From Clostridiales bacterium (GTDB lineage Bacteria > Bacillota > Clostridia > Lachnospirales > Lachnospiraceae), in NCBI GenBank assembly GCA_021203285.1, contig JAJQBM010000138.1, positions 1 through 7,520 of the forward strand: a DNA stretch of 7,520 nt, in the 5' to 3' direction. Positions 1,949 through 7,485 of the stretch are shown one piece after another. The notes under the pieces were generated by a model. The model was not told the origin of the DNA, ran no database searches, and saw only the letters and a program-made list of their open reading frames with translations. The position numbers and the translations under genes were made by a program. Each line of letters begins with the position of its first letter. The stretch's first letter is position 1.

Positions 1949-3466
1949 TTAAGTTTCACCCAACAGCTCCAACAGATCATCCCTGCTTATGCCGGCGAGC
2001 TGCCCGGCGTCTCCGCTGATCACCTGATCGGCAAGATCCCGTTTCGTCTCCTGAAGCGCAAGAATTTTCTCCTCAATTGAATTTCGAACAATCAATTTAA
2101 ATACTGTCACTTTTTTTGTCTGTCCGATGCGATGCGCCCGATCCGTAGCCTGATTCTGCGCGGCGACATTCCACCACGGATCATAGTGAATTACAACATC
2201 CGCACCGGTCAGATTCAATCCAACTCCGCCCGCCTTCAGCGAAATCAGAAAAACCGGGACATTTCCGGCGTTAAAGTCCTTCACCAGCTCCAACCGATTC
2301 TGTTTTGATGTGCTTCCCGTGATCGTATAATACGGTATGTTTACATTGTCCAACCGTCCCTGCAAAATATCCAGCATGGATGTAAACTGGGAAAACAGGA
2401 GCATTCGATGCCCGCCGTCGATAGCAATCTGTATCAGATCCATACAGGCGTCAGCCTTCGCGGACTCTCCCTGATAACTTTCAAAGCACAGGGACGGATC
2501 GCAGCAGATCTGTCGCAGCCGCATAAACTCGGTTAAAACTGCCAGCTTGTTCCGGTTAAACTCCGCCGCATCCTGACCGGCGATGAGTCGGCGCATATGC
2601 AGAACCTGACCATCGTAAAGCTGCTGCTGCTTTGCATCGAGCTGTACATAGCGTACCTCCTCCAGCTTGTCCGGCAGATCTTTCAGAACATTCTCCTTCA
2701 AACGGCGCAGGATGAAAGGCCCGGTCATTTTCTGAAGACGCTGCATCGCCTGTTCATCCTGATACTTGACAATGGGTATCTCCATCTCACGCCGAAAAAC
2801 CTCATAGGTATACAAAAATCCCGGCATCAGGAAATCAAAAATGCTCCACAACTCGCTCAGCCTGTTCTCAATCGGCGTACCAGTCAGTGCAAAATGATAT
2901 CTGCTCTTTATTACCTTGACCGCCTTAGCCGCGGCGGTAGTATGGTTTTTGATATACTGTGCCTCATCGATCACTTCATATTCAAATGTAATCTCCTCGT
3001 ACAGATTGATATCACGTTTTAAAAGATCATATGATGTCACCGACACATCGTACTCACGGCAGGCAGCAATTTTTTCCTGACGCTCCTTCTGTGTGCCGGT
3101 AATCAGCAGGATCTTCATCTCTGGCGCAAACCGTGCAAATTCCTCGCCCCAGTTGAAGACCAGAGATGCCGGAGCCACCACAAGGGAAGTGGGCGCTTCC
3201 GTGACGCTCCGCTCCTTTGCGGAAAGCAGAAGCGCAATGATCTGCAGGGTTTTTCCCAAGCCCATATCGTCGGCCAGAATACCGCCAAGCTTCCATGTTT
3301 CCAGAGTTCTCAGCCATTTATACCCATCTTTCTGGTATCTTCGCATGATCCCGGAAAGGCTTGACGGAACATCAAAGTCCGCATCATTTACAGTCTTGAA
3401 TTCCATGAACATTTCACTGAAATGGCGATCCCTGGCATTGGAAACGCCCTCGTGCTCCTCCACCAT
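1949..3466 (-). CDS. SNF2-family helicase motor (C-terminal half of a split SWIM/SNF2 protein)
   Basis: This 505-codon reading frame encodes a complete SNF2 ATPase core. Visible motifs are a Q-motif-like RRYQKDGYKWL (42-52), motif I DDMGLGKT (66-73), motif II DEAQ (167-170), motif III LTGTPIEN (194-201), LLFSQFT (356-362), motif V SLKAGGVGLNLTGAD (409-423) and motif VI QATDRAHRIGQT (439-450). SNF2 proteins use ATP to move along double-stranded DNA and displace or remodel bound proteins, usually without separating strands. All catalytic motifs are intact. The only start is weak: ATG at 3466 follows the TAG stop of the upstream gene with no Shine-Dalgarno in front of it. Both genes are in the same frame, and in related clostridial proteins, as I recall them, the SWIM/SNF2-associated region and this motor form one chain. 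Residues 1-40 match the linker that normally leads into the motor. It may therefore be made by reinitiation, by readthrough of TAG, or poorly. Confidence 0.93.
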   Translation of the reverse strand: MVEEHEGVSNARDRHFSEMFMEFKTVNDADFDVPSSLSGIMRRYQKDGYKWLRTLETWKLGGILADDMGLGKTLQIIALLLSAKERSVTEAPTSLVVAPASLVFNWGEEFARFAPEMKILLITGTQKERQEKIAACREYDVSVTSYDLLKRDINLYEEITFEYEVIDEAQYIKNHTTAAAKAVKVIKSRYHFALTGTPIENRLSELWSIFDFLMPGFLYTYEVFRREMEIPIVKYQDEQAMQRLQKMTGPFILRRLKENVLKDLPDKLEEVRYVQLDAKQQQLYDGQVLHMRRLIAGQDAAEFNRNKLAVLTEFMRLRQICCDPSLCFESYQGESAKADACMDLIQIAIDGGHRMLLFSQFTSMLDILQGRLDNVNIPYYTITGSTSKQNRLELVKDFNAGNVPVFLISLKAGGVGLNLTGADVVIHYDPWWNVAAQNQATDRAHRIGQTKKVTVFKLIVRNSIEEKILALQETKRDLADQVISGDAGQLAGISRDDLLELLGET

Positions 3467-3469
3467 CTA
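3467..3469 (-). other. In-frame amber (TAG) codon splitting the SWIM/SNF2 protein
   Basis: The codon order on the minus strand is CTG AAC TAG ATG GTG GAG, giving LN-stop-MVE. No frame change occurs, and the two flanking reading frames join into 1387 residues of one recognisable protein family. It is the only TAG among the six stop codons in the window; the others are three TGA and two TAA. A one-base change from AAG, CAG, GAG or another sense codon would explain it. Confidence 0.9.
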
Positions 3470-6112
3470 GTTCAGATAGAGCGTGGGGTAAAGCGGCAGA
3501 TGCATCTTTCCCTGTACAAAATCTCCGGGCTTTATGTGCATGGATTCCATCAGCTCCAGAAGCAGATCCAGAGACTGCCGGTCCATATCCACATAGGAAC
3601 CGTCCTTCAGCCGGTAATAGGTTTTCTTTTCCCGATAAGCGTTCAGGATATCCAGCAGCTCTTCCGGAGACACATCATCTGTGACGATATCCAGATCGAG
3701 CAGTCCTCCGGATACCGAAACTCCGACAGATATCTTCACCGGCCGAACTTTCCGACGTGCACGGAAGCGATCTGTGCACTGCACCTCACCCAGCGCCAAC
3801 AGTTCCTCCACTCCTGAGGTCATAATCTGATAAATCAGTTCCTCGTCTCCGTCACAGGAAAGCTCCTCGTTTTCCATATCAATAACAGGAAACCATGTAT
3901 ACAGGCGGTACAGCATCTCCTGCTCCGCCTGCACATTTCGGTATGTTTCCAATGTCCCCTGAAACGCCGGATTCATATGATCCATGAGCGACAGCTCCGT
4001 CTGGTCATATCTGGCGAACGGGTGACACTGCACATCACCGTTTCCGGCGTCCAGATAAAACACGAACTTTACCGGAGGCGCGAGGAAAGCGTGTATCCTT
4101 TCCGGATCAGTTTCGACCACATCCGCGATGTCCTGCAGCTCCGGCAGAAGATGATAATAAAACTCTGACAGATTTTTCCTTCCGACGCGGAAAGTAAATC
4201 TTCCGCTCTCGTCCGCCATCTCCGCGAAATTCTCGATTTTTTCCTGAAATCCCTGTGAAGACCGGCACAGCAAATTATCGCTGACATAATAGGCACAATC
4301 CATCCCGAAAAACAGTTCCGGAAGGGTGCCGGAAACCTGTATGCCGTGAAACTCACCGTCAGATGGCGCACTGTGCGGCGTTGCTTTTCCCGATTCTTTC
4401 CCTTTTCTCTTCGAAGAAAGATTCGCCTCTTCAATCTGAAATGTCACATGCGGATTTCCCTCCCCGCATCGCAGAACCTTTTTCACCTTTCCGGCCGCAT
4501 CGCGATCCTCATATTCCACGGACTCATCCGCCAGTTCCTTATAAAGCTCATCCAGCCGCCCGCCGAACATATCCAGGGATCCCCCGACTTTGGCCGTTCT
4601 GTGATAATAGTAGCGGGAACGCACGGCTTCTGCCATACGCTGGCAAAACTCCTCTTCCTCCTGCACGATACGCTCGATAAAACGAATCCATTTTTGCCCG
4701 CTGTCCGTGAAGTTGCTCCGGCGATGATTAAAGCTGGTATTGGATCCGTAGGCAGCGGTCTCTGCATTTCTCACATTTTCGCAGAATTCATCCAGTTGTT
4801 TAATGACAAACAATTTCCCGATGCCAATTTTAAAGGAAACCGACAATGCTCCGCCCTTTTTCACCAGACGGGGCTTTAATGTGAGGCTCTCTGTCTCTGC
4901 CGTTCGGTCTGCTATAAACAGATTGGTTCTCTTTTTGTCATACAGGGAAAGCAGCCTTTTAGCATTCCAGTCCGTTGCATCTCCGACCGGATTCAACGCA
5001 AGGCAATCCTTCAGCGCCGTCAGCACAGCGGCGGCATAGGCACAGGTCGCTTTCGATTCATAATACCAGTTATAGCTTTTCATGCATTTCGGACAGGTGC
5101 ACTGCACCCGGCGAACAGAATCTCTGGTGAAATATACCGTTGTCTGAAATTCTGATCTCCCCTCTTTTCCCTGCCATGATGCCACGCCAATCATATCCGT
5201 GTCGTTTTCATACAACGAACGGCTGTTGCGTTCGTATCCGGTCTCTACCGACACCCCGTCCACAACACCCTGATCATACAGTTCTATGCCTGCTTCGCGA
5301 AGATCATCTGACAGATCCGCGGATTGAAAAATCGACTCGGCATCAAAATAGCTGTATCTGGTCAATGAATCAATGCTGCCATGAGCAATCTCCGTATCCT
5401 CATCGCCCTGCCATGCATCGCCAAGAAGGGAATATGTCTCGGTGCGGCGTGCCCGTTCCTCCTGTTTTTTTCGCTTATCGGCATCTGCCCTTGCCGCCTC
5501 CTCATCCTGGATGCGTTTCTGTCGGCGCCGCTTCTCTTCAACCTTTTTCTCCTGACGAATCGCTTCCCTACGCGCCTCCTCGGCCTTCTGCTTTTCAAGC
5601 TGTCTCTGCCGCAGTGCTTCCGCCGCCGCTTTCTGCTGTGCCTCCTTCTCGGCCCGCTCTGCTTTCCGCTTTTCCCTCGCGGCACGGCGTTCGGCCCGCT
5701 GCGCCTCTTCTTTTGCCGCGCGCTCAATCTCTTTCTTTGTCTCGCGTTTGACTTCTTCTTTTACAGTACGCCCGGTCCTCCTTGTGTCATCGCGTTTGGA
5801 AGGATCTTTCCCGCCATTTTCCGACGATATTTGCTTCGGATGATCCATCGCCTCGATTGCAAAGAGAAGTGCCGCCATATGTACACAACAATTTCCGCTG
5901 CGCGCGACGGGGCAGTGACAGTTCATCCGAGTCGGCGCCCCGTTTTGAAGTGTCAGAGACACCTCATTGCGGGCTCGATCCAGAACAGCCGCCGAATATC
6001 TGTCCCCATCCTGTTTCAGGTCAACAACCTTGTGATTCTGAAACGCTGTCTCTCCCCGCCCTAATGTAGATGTGATAAATTTCTCTTTCCAGTTCTTCTG
6101 TAACCGTCCCAT
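3467..6112 (-). CDS. SWIM zinc-finger and SNF2-associated protein (N-terminal half of a split SNF2 helicase)
   Basis: The 881-residue product begins MGRLQKNWKEKFI. Residues 10-90 form a SWIM module with ligands C65, C67, C76 and H78 (CxC...CxH). Residues about 105-225 are almost only E, K, R, A and Q and should form a long charged helix. Residues about 270-365 look like a second SWIM module with C338, C340, C357 and Tyr359 where His is expected. Residues about 380-881 resemble the bacterial SNF2-associated domain. SWIM domains bind zinc and are thought to contact DNA or protein. This half would recruit or control the motor encoded in the same frame downstream. The start at 6112 is chosen because AAGAGGT lies 7 nt upstream and the SWIM fold begins here; an open frame continues to 6217 but overlaps the VOC gene. 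The gene begins 23 nt after the VOC stop. It ends in TAG, immediately followed by the motor's ATG. The ending LYLN lies inside a normally continuous linker, so this is probably not a natural C-terminus. Confidence 0.85.
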   Translation of the reverse strand: MGRLQKNWKEKFITSTLGRGETAFQNHKVVDLKQDGDRYSAAVLDRARNEVSLTLQNGAPTRMNCHCPVARSGNCCVHMAALLFAIEAMDHPKQISSENGGKDPSKRDDTRRTGRTVKEEVKRETKKEIERAAKEEAQRAERRAAREKRKAERAEKEAQQKAAAEALRQRQLEKQKAEEARREAIRQEKKVEEKRRRQKRIQDEEAARADADKRKKQEERARRTETYSLLGDAWQGDEDTEIAHGSIDSLTRYSYFDAESIFQSADLSDDLREAGIELYDQGVVDGVSVETGYERNSRSLYENDTDMIGVASWQGKEGRSEFQTTVYFTRDSVRRVQCTCPKCMKSYNWYYESKATCAYAAAVLTALKDCLALNPVGDATDWNAKRLLSLYDKKRTNLFIADRTAETESLTLKPRLVKKGGALSVSFKIGIGKLFVIKQLDEFCENVRNAETAAYGSNTSFNHRRSNFTDSGQKWIRFIERIVQEEEEFCQRMAEAVRSRYYYHRTAKVGGSLDMFGGRLDELYKELADESVEYEDRDAAGKVKKVLRCGEGNPHVTFQIEEANLSSKRKGKESGKATPHSAPSDGEFHGIQVSGTLPELFFGMDCAYYVSDNLLCRSSQGFQEKIENFAEMADESGRFTFRVGRKNLSEFYYHLLPELQDIADVVETDPERIHAFLAPPVKFVFYLDAGNGDVQCHPFARYDQTELSLMDHMNPAFQGTLETYRNVQAEQEMLYRLYTWFPVIDMENEELSCDGDEELIYQIMTSGVEELLALGEVQCTDRFRARRKVRPVKISVGVSVSGGLLDLDIVTDDVSPEELLDILNAYREKKTYYRLKDGSYVDMDRQSLDLLLELMESMHIKPGDFVQGKMHLPLYPTLYLN

Positions 6113-6135: not shown

Positions 6136-6498
6136 TCAGAGCCTTTCCTGTATAAACTGCACCATCACCCCATTCGGGTCTTTTACGAAAAAGAACCACG
6201 CATGCGGATTCGGGCAAATCATCTCCCCGGTATCCAGTCCCATGCCGATCAGCCTCTCGCGGCAGGCTTCCGCATCCTCTACCGCAAATCCAATCGAGAG
6301 TCCCGCACCGGAATATGCCTCCGCCGGATTATCCGCCAGCTCCACACAGGTCTCACCAGCACGGTTGGATAAAAACACGACCTTATGTCCGGGGCCGTCC
6401 CGCATGTCCCGCTCAATCGTCAACCCGGCAACTGTCTCATAAAATGCCACGGATTCATCCATATGCGCCGTCATAATTGTTACATGTGCCATTTTCAT
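6136..6498 (-). CDS. VOC-superfamily (glyoxalase/bleomycin-resistance fold) protein
   Basis: A 120-residue protein with the two beta-alpha-beta-beta-beta halves of the vicinal oxygen chelate fold: MAHVTIMTAHMDESVAFYETVAGL at the start, FLSNRAGETCVELAD in the first half, SIGFAVEDAEACRERL opening the second half, and FFFVKDPNGVMVQFIQ at the end. The length is normal for a single-chain VOC subunit, which usually forms a dimer. Of the four metal positions of glyoxalase I, H5 and E53 are present, but the second-half His and Glu appear to be S68 and Q114. It may therefore use a different metal site or only bind a ligand; no substrate can be named. The ATG at 6498 has AAGGGGG (6515-6509) 10 nt upstream. 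It lies 33 nt after the reductase gene and 23 nt before the SWIM gene, so it is probably co-transcribed. Confidence 0.88.
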   Translation of the reverse strand: MKMAHVTIMTAHMDESVAFYETVAGLTIERDMRDGPGHKVVFLSNRAGETCVELADNPAEAYSGAGLSIGFAVEDAEACRERLIGMGLDTGEMICPNPHAWFFFVKDPNGVMVQFIQERL

Positions 6499-6531: not shown

Positions 6532-7485
6532 TTAATAGTTGTATTCCAGCGCGCCAATCAGCTCACAGATCATCCGATGCGTCGGAACCTCCAGATCATA
6601 TTGATCCGCAAGACGGACAATACACCCGTTTAATGTGTCAATTTCCGTCTTTTGCTTTTTCTCCATATCCTGCAGCGTGGAAGAACGATGCGCAGCAGTA
6701 TCTGGAATCAGTTTATTATAAAATTCGCTTTTATAAGCCTCCGGCGTCTCCCAGAACGTGCGGTATCCGTGACATTTCATCACGGCAAACGTCTCATCAA
6801 TCAGTCGGTCCATAATCGCTCTGGAATCATCGGATTCCGCCAGCTTTCCGTAAGGAACTCGGAGAATGGCGCCGAGCGGATTCAATGTCGTATTGTAGAG
6901 CATTTTCGCCCAGAGCGCCTCCGACAACACGGCGGTTGTCTCACAGGGAATACCGGACGCGGCAATGGCATGCGCCAACGGCTCCATACAATCCGTGTTT
7001 TTTCCATACAGAGACCCCAGCAGAATCGGAGCGGTGTGAACCGTAATGTTGCTGACATTCGGCGCAGTTCTGGAAAAACCGGTGATCACCCGCGCCTGAT
7101 AAATCTCCTCCTCGGAAAAATACGCACGAAACGGCACATCGTTGCCCCAGCCATTCTGCATGATAACGATCTTGCCGTCCGCCCTTAATTTCTCCCGTTG
7201 ATCCGCCAGCTTTGCGGCGACATCTGCGTTGGCCAATGTCTTTGTACAGACCAAAACATAGTCAATGCTATGGTCTGCAAGGTCGGCGAGATCTTCAATC
7301 ACCGCAATTTTCCCGGCCGGAATTGCAATTTCTCCAAAGAGGCCGGTGCGTCGAACGCCGCCCTCCCGAATGGCTTTTCCCGTATTTTCTCGGGCAAGGA
7401 ATGTAACCTCCACGCCCTGAGAGCAGAGAGATGCACCCATGGCAATGCCGATGGCCCCTGCGCCTATAATCAATGTGTGTATCAT
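6532..7485 (-). CDS. Ketopantoate reductase (ApbA/PanE) family oxidoreductase
   Basis: A 317-residue protein of the usual family length. The N-terminal Rossmann domain has GAGAIG at 8-13 for NAD(P)H, VCTKT at 79-83 and QNGWGN at 110-115 (N111). The C-terminal helical domain has LWAKMLYNTTLNPLGA with the likely catalytic K194 and N198, N202, then S269 and E281, which match by spacing the substrate-binding Ser and acid/base Glu of E. coli PanE (S244, E256; K176). PanE reduces 2-dehydropantoate to pantoate in pantothenate and coenzyme A synthesis. No panB or panC lies nearby and such reductases are often present as several paralogues, so the true substrate may be another 2-keto acid; I give no symbol. 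The ATG at 7485 is preceded by AGAAGGAG (7498-7491) at 5 nt spacing. It is the first gene of the run visible here and is followed after 33 nt by the VOC gene. Confidence 0.92.
   Translation of the reverse strand: MIHTLIIGAGAIGIAMGASLCSQGVEVTFLARENTGKAIREGGVRRTGLFGEIAIPAGKIAVIEDLADLADHSIDYVLVCTKTLANADVAAKLADQREKLRADGKIVIMQNGWGNDVPFRAYFSEEEIYQARVITGFSRTAPNVSNITVHTAPILLGSLYGKNTDCMEPLAHAIAASGIPCETTAVLSEALWAKMLYNTTLNPLGAILRVPYGKLAESDDSRAIMDRLIDETFAVMKCHGYRTFWETPEAYKSEFYNKLIPDTAAHRSSTLQDMEKKQKTEIDTLNGCIVRLADQYDLEVPTHRMICELIGALEYNY

Follow-up and report, generated by a model that had tools for sequence, protein, structure and literature searches.

An in-frame amber codon in a Lachnospiraceae SNF2 helicase gene lies in a transversion-rich patch and is very probably an error of the draft contig

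The TAG codon that interrupts an SNF2-family helicase gene in a draft Lachnospiraceae bin is very probably a sequencing or assembly error of the contig, with no counterpart in the living cell. The codon is one of ten clustered, window-specific and mostly transversion differences, and the relatives of the gene are intact. The window, meaning the whole stretch of DNA that was analysed, is the complete contig C46 (7,520 bases) of bin G000, which is fragmentary (1,544,943 bases in 287 contigs, 73% complete). An earlier note, made from the window alone, had described two frames in phase with one TAG between them and an ATG as the next codon, and this arrangement was confirmed (Table 1). The note had further favoured a very recent or functional stop on the ground that nothing else nearby had decayed. 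This premise fails, because nine further substitutions, giving eight amino-acid changes, cluster around the TAG. Among the options that it listed, a read or assembly error is now the best supported, and pyrrolysine or recoding has found no support in the bin.

Table 1. Coordinates and character of the features of the interrupted gene in the window
Feature	Position	Strand	Description
In-frame TAG	3467..3469	minus	Sense codon in relatives, Lys in the three nearest
ATG directly 3' of the TAG	3464..3466	minus	Inherited internal Met codon
N-terminal part, 881 residues (codons)	3470..6112	minus	SWIM-like Cys/His motif, charged stretch, PF08455 SNF2_assoc shortened by the TAG
C-terminal part, 505 residues (505 codons and stop)	1949..3466	minus	SNF2-related ATPase domain PF00176, Helicase_C PF00271
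82-base patch, ten window-specific substitutions	3405..3486	minus	Alignment with L032, L033 and L034

The gene is flanked on the same strand by genes for a metallophosphoesterase (138-1310) and a GDSL/SGNH hydrolase (1301-1939) on one side, and for a glyoxalase-fold protein (6136-6498) and a ketopantoate-reductase-like protein (6532-7485) on the other. Counted over both parts, it encodes PF08455, PF00176 and PF00271 in this order. The same domains in the same order are found in bacterial SNF2-family helicases with an SNF2_assoc domain from Lachnospiraceae and Clostridiales, the nearest intact copy being locus L032. Proteins of this kind are widespread in Lachnospiraceae and other Clostridia and are ordinary. 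In the C-terminal part, the Pfam matches cover profile positions 1-290 of 290 for the SNF2-related domain and 2-110 of 110 for Helicase_C, in keeping with the previous statement that the SNF2 motifs downstream of the stop are intact. The match to SNF2_assoc in the N-terminal part runs from profile position 10 to 337 of 373, and that of the intact L032 protein reaches 373. No Pfam SWIM match was obtained in this part at E 0.1; a CxC...CxH arrangement spotted there by eye is what we take to be the SWIM-like motif. In the L032 protein, SNF2_assoc occupies residues 551-916 and the TAG falls at residue 882, about 35 residues before the end of the domain. This location within SNF2_assoc speaks against the clean split between domains that had been described.

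The nearest relative, L032 (G011:C218), encodes one intact chain of 1,387 residues, protein P0001, annotated as 'SNF2 helicase associated domain-containing protein'. It shares 96.8% DNA identity with the window over 6,128 bases, and the protein identity is 97.4% for the N-terminal part (881 residues aligned) and 96.4% for the C-terminal part (505 aligned). L032, L033 and L034 all have a lysine codon at the place of the TAG, followed by the same ATG (Lys-Met-Leu-Glu-Glu). Thus, the ATG in the window is an inherited internal codon and neither a designed start nor evidence of a start site. In total, 91 homologous loci were examined, comprising the best 80 of at least 594 matches in GTDB species genomes and 11 of the same genus; L038 and L108, both on contigs of 48,436 bases, may be one record counted twice. 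A more distant match from the genus, G009 (39% identity), was excluded from this set and is likewise free of an internal stop. None of the 91 loci has a stop in the aligned stretch, and the expectation that relatives carry one chain holds for all of them. The window differs from these helicases in its patch of ten differences from L032 and in its TAG, where 90 of the 90 covering loci have a sense codon (K 37, R 17, A 15, S 7, Q 4, G 3, E 3, N 2, L 1, T 1). At the remaining locus, L126, the alignment begins past this column, and no stop interrupts the frame over the 1,008 codons upstream.

The adjacency of TAG and ATG and the common phase of the two parts would suit a stable functional split, in which two polypeptides are coupled by termination at the TAG and reinitiation at the adjoining ATG. 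A search with the C-terminal part found 7,987 homologous proteins, of which 120 were listed and ten of the shorter ones viewed. Among these ten, P0136 begins at the same Met as the post-TAG ATG, and P0140, P0186 and P0222 each have a separate initial Met that lies 9 to 13 residues upstream. The few proteins of this size, the size of the C-terminal half, are most likely products of genes truncated where a contig ends, or predicted from an internal start. Against such a split, no locus among the 91 is divided, the stop lies inside PF08455 and not between domains, and the ATG is inherited as an internal codon. Moreover, the 31 bases before the TAG hold no AGG, GGA or GAG, as the reported absence of a Shine-Dalgarno sequence had implied. 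A functional split is therefore regarded as extremely improbable.

Over 7,110 aligned bases, the window differs from L032 by 244 substitutions, of which 184 are transitions and 60 are transversions. The patch around the TAG (Table 1) holds ten of these, nine transversions and one transition, with the TAG among them, whereas the rest of the alignment has 51 transversions and 183 transitions (Fisher 1.6e-5 for the patch against the rest). Nine transversions in any 82 bases were not reached in any of 20,000 shuffles of position; when only the labels were shuffled, nine transversions in ten consecutive substitutions were reached in 0.2%. Density alone was considered as a sign of error and was rejected, since 20% of shuffles reach ten substitutions in 82 bases and another place on the contig has 16 in 82. 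Changes from A to C on the coding strand account for three of the ten, and the whole set is without a single dominant type. L033 and L034 agree with L032 against the window at all ten sites, which indicates that the changes arose on the side of the window.

The effect of the ten substitutions on the protein is equally distinctive. Nine of them, the stop included, are protein-changing, compared with 33 of the 78 codons that differ elsewhere in the gene. For random single-base changes in the 28 codons concerned, a uniform model predicts that 81% would change the protein, and at least one stop is expected in 33% of random sets of ten. With a random stop this likely, and the TAG being one of ten hits, no separate explanation for the TAG is required. 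Residue 876 is Arg in every one of the 89 homologues, but the window has Pro there. Of the nine states seen in the window, again counting the stop, five are absent from the homologues, and three occur in 2, 3 and 6 of the 89. The differences are clustered, private to this assembly, and error-like rather than evolution-like in their spectrum. Some points count against an artefact: the density is ordinary, the window's N887H matches a common residue (His in 29 of 89 homologues), the three other replacements just mentioned are also shared with a few homologues, and the window has no N run, so that nothing visible places the patch at a scaffold join.

A metagenome bin can combine several strains, and the patch might have come from another allele, strain or paralogue, either by recombination or by chimeric assembly of strains that co-exist. 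Other divergent spots between the two bins G000 and G011 would be compatible with such an origin. A working divergent allele, however, would bring mostly silent changes; here only one of the ten is silent, and one of the others alters the Arg876 kept by every homologue. In addition, when a 401-base piece spanning the junction was searched against G000, its sole match was to itself, and a 601-base piece had no match that would indicate a plasmid copy. An origin from another allele is thus considered highly improbable.

If the patch is an error, as preferred here, wrong base calls from low-quality read sequence would have been carried into the draft metagenome contig. A thinly covered place may have been bridged by an error-rich read, or may have been gap-filled, and ten roughly random hits would have produced a stop by chance. 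The gene in the cell would then encode a single, unremarkable protein of about 1,387 residues with SNF2_assoc, SNF2-ATPase and Helicase_C domains. According to the cited passages of Cooley and Wright (2024; PMC11017572), assemblies acquire spurious internal stops when coverage is thin and reads are of poor quality. In the low-quality tails of Illumina reads, a substitution error of 6.5% is given for one data set in the cited part of PMC3334598, which also describes regions where wrong calls accumulate and, citing other work, names A-to-C as the most frequent conversion. The present case resembles the spurious 'pseudogenes' of drafts as described in those passages of PMC11017572, with an internal stop in a conserved gene, in a fragmentary bin that contains a second stop-bearing patch. 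It differs from the spurious stops described there in that nine other substitutions accompany the stop within 82 bases.

Similar patches are present in the same assembly and in a related one. A scan of 41 contigs of G000 (397,102 bases) against 81 contigs of the sister bin G011, nine of which read only N, aligned 147,514 bases and found 12 patches in which six or more transversions fall within 100 bases, with transitions being few. This figure follows the addition of further G011 contigs; other thresholds had earlier given eight. Some patches that were listed at first turned out to be runs of N or regions with indels and were discarded. Of the 12 patches, six were assigned to one bin and six were left unpolarised. 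Among the latter, four lie beside indels and may be true divergence, and two, both at L148, are without indels.

In G000, the patches assigned are that of the window and one other, a thin sample from which to judge the rate in this bin. The second, with six transversions inside 13 bases, lies in a T-rich stretch of araD on contig C24 (L216, about 8704-8735) and creates an in-frame TAA. It is 56-68 bases from a run of 10 N, in place of which the relative has three bases, and a family search found araD in two pieces with the TAA inside. The garbled, T-rich stretch has the appearance of a read tail of low quality that was incorporated into the contig. In G011, patches were assigned in RNase III (L187, about 1273-1345), twice in argH (L210, about 5944-6008 and 6632-6655), one of these about 30 bases from a contig end, and in rhamnulokinase (L193, about 3160-3221), where the patch has an in-frame stop and is 16 bases from a run of 10 N. 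The polarity of the rhamnulokinase patch follows from a comparison of the G011 copy, which holds the stop, with that of G000, which matches the family over its full length. For RNase III it was taken from whole-protein family scores of 245.4 and 235.1 bits, a modest difference; for argH the scores were 553.6 and 533.4 bits, also a modest difference and one that does not tell the two argH patches apart. Caution is advisable with gene calls, and with counts of substitutions, taken from G011.

The same observations bear on whether the patch and its TAG are real. A local mutation shower, for example through error-prone repair synthesis, could have broken the gene recently and left a young pseudogene; the rest of the gene looks intact, and the derivation of all ten changes on the side of the window is what a real recent event would also give. 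Nevertheless, nine transversions in ten stand against the transition-rich pattern elsewhere (183 of 234 substitutions), and the similar patches in G000 and its sister, two of them near runs of 10 N, fit an assembly origin better. Such a shower is considered unlikely. The more specific case, in which the ten bases are real and a transversion-type shower within 82 bases hit the hinge of an SNF2 remodeller and left two coupled polypeptides, is judged decidedly improbable. Were the patch real, it would be a mutation shower caught in the act and would record, in nature, a mutator that works patch by patch. If the artefact reading is true, a lone in-frame stop in a draft metagenome bin calls first for a check of the surroundings for a cluster of transversions, and this check should precede proposals of recoding, splitting or decay.

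Read-through of the amber codon, by which a suppressor tRNA, pyrrolysine or stop recoding would insert a residue at the TAG, was examined at the level of the bin. The six gene stops in the window are three TGA, two TAA and one TAG, which confirms that TAG is used only once. The scarcity of TAG had been offered as a hint, with due caution about so few stops, and it proved meaningless: of the 278 non-overlapping frames with at least 150 codons in 41 contigs of G000, 70 end in TAG, by a mechanical count that may include non-genes. TAG is not rare as a terminator. A release-factor-1 match is also present in G000, with 417.9 bits just under the cut-off of 423.25 and cut at the contig edge. A pyrrolysyl-tRNA synthetase (PylS) together with an amber-reading tRNA was not found in the genome. 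PylS gave no match over the cut-off in G000, although in a bin that is 73% complete this absence is not proof, and none in 18 of the 19 other genomes of the genus, the sister G011 included. None of the eight tRNAs found has a CTA anticodon, a weak test since most tRNAs are missing from the bin. With no PylS over the cut-off and TAG an ordinary terminator, pyrrolysine or a suppressor has no support in the bin, and read-through of this codon is exceedingly improbable. Taken together, a functional split or recoding is very unlikely. The one point in favour of read-through is that a PylS match over the cut-off does occur in one of the 20 genomes of the genus. This match, at G010:C71:26057-26785, is to the C-terminal model of pyrrolysyl-tRNA synthetase (TIGR02367) with 309 bits against a cut-off of 178, and may belong to a foreign contig in a bin that is 7% contaminated.
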